Shown piece after piece: positions 4,897-45,550 of a DNA stretch of 64,000 bases (its first letter is position 1; every line of letters starts with the position of its first letter). This DNA comes from Bacteroidia bacterium. Lineage in GTDB: Bacteria; Bacteroidota; Bacteroidia; B-17B0; Aurantibacillaceae. The position numbers and the translations under genes are program-made. The notes under the pieces are model-generated. The model did not search any database. It saw nothing but the letters and a program-made list of their open reading frames with translations, and had not been told where the DNA came from. The stretch is from the NCBI GenBank assembly GCA_016787785.1, contig JAEUTO010000014.1, forward strand, positions 186,001-250,000, read 5' to 3'.

Positions 4897-5035
4897 AACC
4901 ACATAGTACACATAGAAAAGCATATCGCTAACTTCTGAAAAGAAGCACATGGTTTTCTTCGCTAGCGAAGAAAATGCTATGTGTTACTTGTGAAAATATT
5001 GTTTGACCTATAAAAAACTATGTGCCTATGTGGTT
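4897..5035. repeat. 139-bp TIR element with perfect central palindrome (copy A)
   Basis: Terminal inverted repeats are AACCACATAGTACACATAG (4897-4915) and CTATGTGCCTATGTGGTT (5018-5035). At the centre (4953-4974) is a perfect 22-bp palindrome with arm TTTTCTTCGCT, flanked by weaker pairing (CACATGG / GCTATGTG). It lies between the convergent 3' ends of apaG and the TPR gene. A second copy is at 45412-45550, and a longer form with the same ends surrounds the GxxExxY gene at 42442-42905. The T-rich tract TAATTTTT follows the right end both here and in copy B. Confidence 0.85.
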
Positions 5036-42423: not shown

Positions 42424-42441
42424 TTGTCAGTGTATTTTTTT

Positions 42442-42905
42442 AAACACATAGACTCATAGAGTTTCGGGTAGTTTTCTAAAATATTCGTTAGCCATTGTTT
42501 TTTGACCTTCAGCAAAAATATTCTTACAATTAAAATTTATTAGAACTCCTTTTGGCGCTTTTAAAAAGTTCATATAGGTTAAAAGCTGCGCTTCAAACAC
42601 TGAGTGTATTTCGTGTGTAGCTTTTAATTCTGCAACTAAGCAATTTTCTATAAATAGATCACATCTTAGATCAATATCAATAAGTTCTGTTTTATATTAA
42701 AACAGGTATTTTCAACTCTGTGGAAAAATTTATTTTTCTATGCTTCAACTCTTCCTTCATGCATTGATGATAAACATTCTCTAATAAGCCACTGCCAATT
42801 GTTTTATGAACTTCAATTGCAGCACCAATAACCTCATATGTAAGCTCGTCAAGAAATTTTTTTGTAATTGGCCTTTCCATAATTATAACTATGTGCCTAT
42901 GTGTT
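42442..42905 (-). mobile_element. GxxExxY element with terminal inverted repeats (copy C)
   Basis: AAACACATAGACTCATAG (42442-42459) and CTATGTGCCTATGTGTT (42889-42905) are inverted repeats of the same sequence as the ends of the short elements at 4897-5035 and 45412-45550. The right repeat is 8 bp upstream of the GxxExxY start codon, and the gene's stop codon lies inside the left repeat. The gene therefore fills the unit exactly. It lies between convergent genes, like the short copies. Confidence 0.6.
42454..42880 (-). pseudogene. GxxExxY protein gene, frameshifted (PD-(D/E)XK-like nuclease fold)
   Basis: The first 62 codons (42880 to 42692) encode the signature GSGLLENVYHQCMKEEL with GLLENVY = GxxExxY. 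The frame then stops at 42692-42694 right after KIPVL. One base shift at about 42692-42700 restores a frame reading YKTELIDIDLRCDLFIEN, then VAELKATHEIHSVFEAQLL, and ending LPETL with a stop at 42454. The restored part carries the Asp...ExK residues of a PD-(D/E)XK core. A single extra T/A in the TATATTAAAA run explains the break. It is either a recent pseudogene, programmed frameshifting, or a sequencing error. Family function is unknown. Confidence 0.85.
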
Positions 42906-42910
42906 AAAAA

Positions 42911-45411: not shown

Positions 45412-45550
45412 ACCAACTAGAAACATAGGAAAAAGATATTACTAACTGCTAAAAAGAGACACATAAATTTTCATCGCTAGCGATGAAAATACTATGTTTT
45501 GCTATTTGGATCTTAGAAATACTTTAAAAAAGACTCTGTGCCTATGTGTT
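45412..45550. repeat. 139-bp TIR element with perfect central palindrome (copy B)
   Basis: Aligns end to end with copy A (4897-5035). Left end ACCAACTAGAAACATAGG, right end GACTCTGTGCCTATGTGTT, and a shared internal segment CTAACT-CT-AAAA-GA. The centre (45467-45490) is a perfect 24-bp palindrome with arm ATTTTCATCGCT. Copy A has TTCGC where B has ATCGC, yet both arms match in each copy, so the change is compensated. It lies between the convergent Nudix and pbpC genes. Confidence 0.85.

Follow-up and report, generated by a model that had tools for sequence, protein, structure and literature searches.

Among described systems, REP/RAYT pairs (REPtrons) and TIRtrons come closest to the locus analysed here. 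As presented in PMC3733652, they consist of a small gene that has palindromes or terminal inverted repeats (TIRs) on its flanks, accompanied by gene-less dispersed copies, and their repeats vary between lineages; each of these traits recurs at this locus. A further parallel is offered by the intervening sequences (IVS) of 23S rRNA that carry an S23 open reading frame (ORF). According to PMC4990558, rRNA IVS with S23 have terminal inverted repeats and are excised by RNase III, and in the Coxiella IVS tandem GACAGAT heptamers adjoin the S23 ORF. The small decaying ORF, the terminal inverted repeats and the tandem heptamers beside the ORF are features that such IVS (again PMC4990558) share with the present locus. 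Insertion sequences and MITEs (IS/MITE) likewise combine a TIR-bounded gene copy with short gene-less copies and with empty sites in relatives, as is the case here.

The gene at this locus belongs to the GxxExxY family (PF13366 / TIGR04256), for which we know of no role. In open-licence PMC text, GxxExxY is named in two papers, one of them PMC8934634, and PF13366 in one, PMC9756366. Among the papers listed from that text, none describes arms that flank GxxExxY genes.

The window unit and its recurrence across genomes

The window is the whole stretch of DNA analysed, 64,000 nucleotides (G000:C6:186001-250000) of a 4.6-Mb genome. Its relevant features are the following.

42442..42905, minus strand: GxxExxY pseudogene unit between inverted heptamer arrays (from arms, frame and orthologous-site comparison)
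42445..42459, plus strand: left arm, CACATAG-A-CTCATAG, two 7-mer units with spacer 1
42889..42903, minus strand: right arm, reading inward CACATAG-G-CACATAG, two 7-mer units with spacer 1
42454..42880, minus strand: GxxExxY coding frame (PF13366 / TIGR04256), frameshift near 42,697; family as in the intact sister
4897..5035, no strand: short palindromic relative that has the same arms but no gene, its inner units adjoining a central hairpin
4900-4906 and 4909-4915 (spacer 2), 5018-5024 and 5026-5032 (spacer 1): 7-mer units of the 4897..5035 element
4953..4974, no strand: central palindrome of the 4897..5035 element
45412..45550, no strand: another such short relative, palindromic and with a degenerate left arm

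The unit is 464 bp long and intergenic, with an ORF on either side, and GxxExxY is the sole notable frame between its arms. These inverted arms (42438-42459 and 42889-42910) are 22 nt long and 86% complementary. An initial sequence-only reading had described the frame as tightly bracketed by inverted repeats, and it is: the stop codon (42454-42456) lies inside the left arm, and 8 bp separate the right arm from the ATG (42878-42880, minus strand). One correction concerns the gene: frame and family are present, but the frame is broken at about 42,697, and the window copy is thus a pseudogene, for which the HMMER match is split in two pieces of 55 bits each. The arm pattern CTATGTGNCTATGTGKTT (up to three mismatches) occurs four times in the 64-kb window, against 0.21 expected, and none of 100 shuffles contained four or more matches. 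Both short elements in the window are 139 bp long and gene-less, and they end as the unit does, again as first described, with the left arm of the 45412-45550 element degenerate. Gene and arms almost certainly constitute one unit.

PF13366 was found in at least 76 of the 100 genomes searched, own genome included, with weak matches under-sampled. In the own genome and its relatives, 67 of 92 GxxExxY loci (two from the former, 90 from the latter) exceeded the 99th percentile of shuffles, compared with 71 of 908 mismatched-locus pairs. The cross-phylum sample, comprising the best 80 of at least 579 loci less two skipped at contig ends, gave 57 of 78 above threshold; mismatched pairs gave 133 of 763, because CACAGAG-like words are common to many loci. 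When the two samples are pooled, 126 of 170 GxxExxY genes (125 of 169 distinct loci, L226 being a duplicate of L108) lie between significant inverted repeats, whereas only 5 of 152 neighbouring control ORFs do (Fisher p 9e-44), and the translations of the two strongest of those five, read by eye, identify one as an S23 gene and the other as a further GxxExxY. The other 44 of the 170 have no arm above threshold. The proposal of an element built around GxxExxY, which was to fall if these genes were flanked no more often than other genes, has survived this comparison. A chance coincidence of gene and repeats might be entertained from the window by itself, which offers three cases only; it is contradicted both by the control ORFs and by the cross-phylum loci, and its probability is negligible.

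Gene-less copies and the occupancy of sites

The array CTATGTGNCTATGTG (up to one mismatch) has 62 matches in the whole genome, 39 of them exact, and the reversed-pattern control has none. These include the arms of 27 short gene-less palindromic elements of 116-187 bp (25 detected as pairs, and the window's two added by hand) and of two CACATAG-armed GxxExxY units, namely the window copy and an intact copy of 461 bp on C12. The third GxxExxY gene of the genome has the arm word TACGAAT instead. Eight further matches have no partner at up to two mismatches; with up to four allowed, three of them (L006, L008, L048) acquire a partner 103-121 bp away, L046 has a doubtful one at 480 bp, and four have none. 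CACATAG array pairs less than 900 bp apart in this genome enclose either no gene or GxxExxY, and with partner checks extended to four mismatches no CACATAG pair is seen around any other gene.

The short elements resemble one another in layout, the unit recurring about 45-50 nt inside most ends, beside the central palindrome. They tend to lie close behind stop codons, which bears on a possible terminator role, with 11 of the 27 between convergent genes, 15 between tandem genes, none between divergent genes and one in another setting; the gene pairs of the window, for comparison, are 8 convergent, 37 tandem and 7 divergent. For gene-bearing units, the orientation of neighbours was uninformative. 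At G000:C6:354391-354578, a CTTAGTG array occurs about 40 bp past a CACATAG short element, possibly through nested or adjacent insertions, and a similar CTTAGTG/CACATAG arrangement is found near G018:C1:346434-346623.

Dispersal of gene-less palindromes is not confined to this genome. Eight genomes were picked for GxxExxY with CACAGAG-type arms, which makes them examples rather than a survey, and searched for CACAGAG-1-CACAGAG-2-CACAGAG (up to two mismatches). The array has 90 matches in a deltaproteobacterium (G100), 74 in an acidobacterium (G103), 26 in G068, 19 in G105, 13 in G101 and 4 in G071. In G102 there are two, inverted and 437 bp apart, which are probably the gene's own arms, and in G104, whose arms use other spacers, there are none; the reversed control has no match in any of the eight. 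Gene-less palindromes carrying the same array as a GxxExxY gene are thus multicopy in several genomes. At locus L208, in the genome with 90 matches, the gene has on either side what can be read as a whole palindrome, as in a REPtron. Among 100 relatives, the CACAGAG array (up to one mismatch) is present in 11 and its reversed control in none; 10 of these 11 genomes and 66 of the 89 others have some GxxExxY gene, a difference that is not significant (p 0.29).

The site of the window unit was compared in 15 congeners, of which 12 retain both flanks (G001, G013 and G014 lack the left flank and were dropped). Empty sites in relatives, which the sequence-only reading had proposed to look for, are present: in seven congeners (G006, G010, G011, G016, G017, G031 and G035) the flanks are separated by 4-82 bp without arms. 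G034 has the same unit at the orthologous site, including the degenerate arm, with a frameshift at a different point of the frame. G018, G021 and G022 have other sequence there. In G020 (L286), the site, 42424-42909 in the window, is occupied by a short element of another word, with GCCACTAATTTCAC ends; the presence of a different-word element at this position amounts to repeated use of one site. By regional identity, G034 is less close to G000 than are G018 and G020, which implies that the insertion took place in a common ancestor and that the unit was later lost or replaced. At the site of the 45412 element, compared in five congeners, G018 is occupied, G011 and G037 have an empty site, G020 has other sequence, and G006 retains an arm-to-arm remnant of about 50 bp. 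Neither a target-site duplication (flank direct repeats 5.93, against 5.89 for mismatched pairs) nor exact element ends could be defined from the 27 short elements, whose ends are approximate. From these site comparisons, it is very probable that the unit has moved.

It may be asked whether GxxExxY is instead a resident regulator or defence nuclease, for which the arrays serve as operator or self-recognition sites and the short palindromes are other targets. Purifying selection on the gene (three clades give pN/pS values of 0.23-0.26, their synonymous sites being almost saturated), which also counts in favour of the mobile unit, would suit such a host gene, and the covariation of protein and array described below would suit a regulator and its operator. 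Its arrays, however, are two-sided, inverted and matched in their spacers, the whole unit is missing from the orthologous site in seven congeners, and the two orthologous copies are frameshifted differently. A host gene of this kind is improbable, and a mobile unit is the reading followed here.

Anatomy of the arms and what may read them

The arms were first taken for one fixed TIR. That description does not hold: they consist of repeats of a 7-mer that is often CRCNRAK-like, arrayed with a fixed polarity, and the word changes with the protein. The motif C[AG][CT]NNA[GT] is found 573 times in the outer-to-inner direction and 62 times reversed at 123 loci; at 13 of these loci fewer than two such units are present, and of the 13 some use other words such as CATATAAG and others perhaps score by chance. 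A motif-free search for repeated words (score at least 9) found inverted words at 89 of 170 loci, direct ones at 30 and shuffled ones at 2, and the excess in direct order, which counts against the mobile-unit reading, perhaps means that some sides are whole palindromes.

Spacer lengths between the units tend to match in the two arms, for example 1,2,3 with CACTAAG, 2,4,2 with CACAAAG and 3,4,3 with CACAGAG. Both arms contain a run at 101 loci; at 50% of these the two arms agree in their complete spacer list (6% when permuted, with a maximum of 15%), and at 83% they agree in the first spacer (36% permuted). In sequence, the spacers are 47% identical between arms, compared with 31% permuted; unit identity is 91%, partly by construction. 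Units differ by 0.55 mismatches within an element and by 1.5 between elements whose proteins are 50-85% identical. At 91 loci, units that would pair with one another across the arms show 0.598 mismatches, not significantly fewer than the 0.615 of non-partners (Wilcoxon p 0.21, permutation p 0.14). Units of the same arm show 0.623, a marginal difference from partners (Wilcoxon p 0.049). Hairpin-coupled evolution of the arms is thus unsupported by the first comparison and marginal in the second. The low divergence within elements and the weak effect of pairing indicate that each element keeps nearly one word, largely irrespective of pairing. The very small gap between partners and non-partners suggests that a protein recognises the units one by one, with no need of selection on a hairpin. 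The arms are probably recognised in this way rather than maintained as a hairpin, judging from sequence comparison.

These data bear directly on a model in which the unit acts as RNA, its transcript forming a long arm-to-arm hairpin that RNase III cuts in the manner of 23S IVS, with the protein acting on RNA or dispensable. The marginal closeness of partners over same-arm units would allow some arm-to-arm coupling, and the central hairpins of the short elements pair despite differing in sequence: a stem of at least 9 (one mismatch allowed) is present in 25 of 27, against 53 of 540 shuffles, and 18 different inner stems are found. S23 genes, known from rRNA IVS, also have similar arms here. Yet selection on a hairpin should couple partner units, which are not significantly closer than non-partners, Rfam has no match in the window between 41000 and 46500, and seven short exact 23S motifs are all absent from the GxxExxY loci in which they were sought. 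The RNA model is accordingly considered unlikely, and reading by a protein is preferred. The unit as an insertion in 23S rRNA was a separate candidate, rejected because those motifs are absent from the loci and the window copy is intergenic.

The S23 genes themselves lie between inverted repeats above threshold at 21 of 31 loci, compared with 18 of 300 mismatched pairs. Repeated words scoring at least 9 are inverted at 13 of the 31, direct at 6 and shuffled at none, often with a period of 7 to 9. At the S23/four-helix-bundle loci L053, L054 and L145-L173, tandem arm words of 7-9 nt such as GTTTCAG, GAAAGTT and TATTGAG can be recognised.

Word and protein change together. Over 97 loci with at least three units and a clean protein (duplicate dropped), and for pairs more than 25% apart, protein distance and unit distance correlate with a rho of 0.49 (p 0.001; the largest of 999 permutations is 0.15). 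Divergent paralogues within one genome have a median unit distance of 0.33 (12 pairs), whereas the nearest protein of another genome has 0.09 (n=22; p 0.0002). In the 40 genomes of the genus, the array is present in 14 of 18 with a window-clade gene and 5 of 22 without (p 0.001), clade membership having been read by hand among the matches listed; a second word, CTTAGTGNCTTAGTG, is present in 15 of the 40. Arrays without a gene of the matching clade, among the matches listed, include 22 CACATAG arrays in G020 and 16 in G019, and G035 has 23 CACAGAG arrays while its sole listed PF13366 match is of the CACATAG clade. The arrays in these three genomes may be orphan non-autonomous copies or may reflect mobilisation in trans.

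Such covariation would also follow if gene and arms merely travel together. It may be that MITE- or REP-like arrays and palindromes are moved by an unrelated transposase or recombinase, with GxxExxY carried along as cargo, such as a nuclease for defence or addiction. Several genomes have arrays without a matching gene among the matches listed, and the GxxExxY genes that lack arms above threshold would also be compatible with a passenger. Against this, the CACATAG pairs in the own genome hold no cargo other than GxxExxY, the word follows the GxxExxY clade even for paralogues in one genome, and the association of gene and arms recurs over many phyla. Cargo status has a low probability. The earlier suggestion that GxxExxY is the enzyme of an element, with the short copies as its non-autonomous relatives, is borne out as regards gene-less relatives with the same arms; that the protein catalyses the movement is inferred from covariation.

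The protein, a possible mechanism and known systems

The intact sister copy matches TIGR04256 with 124 bits (cut-off 35) and PF13366 with 120 bits (cut-off 22), and PDDEXK_3 is the sole Pfam match of the two GxxExxY proteins of the own genome that were scanned. In 37 sequences the GPGLLExxY motif, D, ExK and Q are invariant (D73, E83, K85, Q97) and Y101 is nearly so. D...ExK...QxxxY is the signature of RecB and Cas4. A search of the PDB by sequence gave no match for GxxExxY. An AlphaFold model of L183, which is not the window copy, has a pLDDT of 96.5, and its best PDB match is 4ic1 (SSO0001; Foldseek E 6e-4, Z 9.8, rmsd 2.9, 99 aligned), which we take to be a Cas4-like nuclease. Lambda exonuclease is also among the best matches (by Foldseek), followed by Hjc (Z 6.9) and by 2okf, labelled as an fdxN element excision controlling factor (Z 5.5); values of Z below 8, according to the tool, may reflect only a common arrangement. 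GxxExxY is accordingly modelled as a Cas4-like PD-(D/E)XK nuclease with invariant catalytic residues. PMC4679880 notes that TAACTGA heptamer repeats are distributed similarly to XisH/XisI, and the presence of 2okf in the fold list stands alongside that lead.

A mechanism can be outlined on this basis. GxxExxY, probably oligomeric, would bind each 7-mer of both arrays, draw the ends of the element together, and cut or nick at the arms. Host repair would then join the element, once freed or exposed, to a break at another place, which would leave no target-site duplication, and inserted elements would persist mostly behind stop codons. The short palindromes would be non-autonomous copies mobilised in trans, and GxxExxY genes at fixed sites would decay later. 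As a reading of the sequences, the double role of GxxExxY as array-reading protein and mobility enzyme is given roughly even odds or slightly better. A REP/RAYT-like mobile system, composed of an enzyme gene and dispersed palindromes but run by a Cas4-like PD-(D/E)XK nuclease, is favoured by a small measure.

A broader and more tentative proposal, which we hold to be somewhat short of an even chance, is that GxxExxY proteins are the mobility nucleases of an element class, not described before, that spans several phyla, with ends written in a spacer code of 7-mers read by the protein. Nuclease and word would coevolve, the REP-like palindromes would be non-autonomous members, and S23 elements, those of 23S rRNA included, would form a parallel branch. 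If true, this would provide a function for a large orphan nuclease family spread across phyla, add a further enzyme class to those of bacterial mobile elements, explain palindromes of the CACAGAG/CACATAG type, and, through the S23 parallel, make the spread of rRNA intervening sequences testable. The paired series of proteins and 7-mers would also be a natural data set on DNA reading by a minimal PD-(D/E)XK protein.

Cas4, Hjc, lambda exonuclease, XisH and Rpn/transposase_31 share with GxxExxY the PD-(D/E)XK fold and the D...ExK...QxxxY signature. To our knowledge, none of these small families is bracketed by heptamer arrays. The 23S rRNA IVS differ in that S23 is another protein family and that the window unit is intergenic. 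Of the two comparisons drawn in the sequence-only reading, IS/MITE and REP/RAYT, the second fits better; the first is weakened by the lack of a DDE or Y1 transposase, by the lack of a target-site duplication signal at the approximately placed ends, and by arms that consist of several spaced units. REP/RAYT differs in turn, its enzyme being an HUH Y1 transposase, where the present one has a Cas4-like PD-(D/E)XK fold, and its repeat a GTAG-tagged stem-loop, where the present one is a 7-mer array with a spacer programme. Defining features of REP/RAYT, IS and IVS, namely an HUH Y1 transposase, a DDE transposase and a position within 23S rRNA, were looked for and are absent here. The unit nonetheless appears to work like a REPtron.
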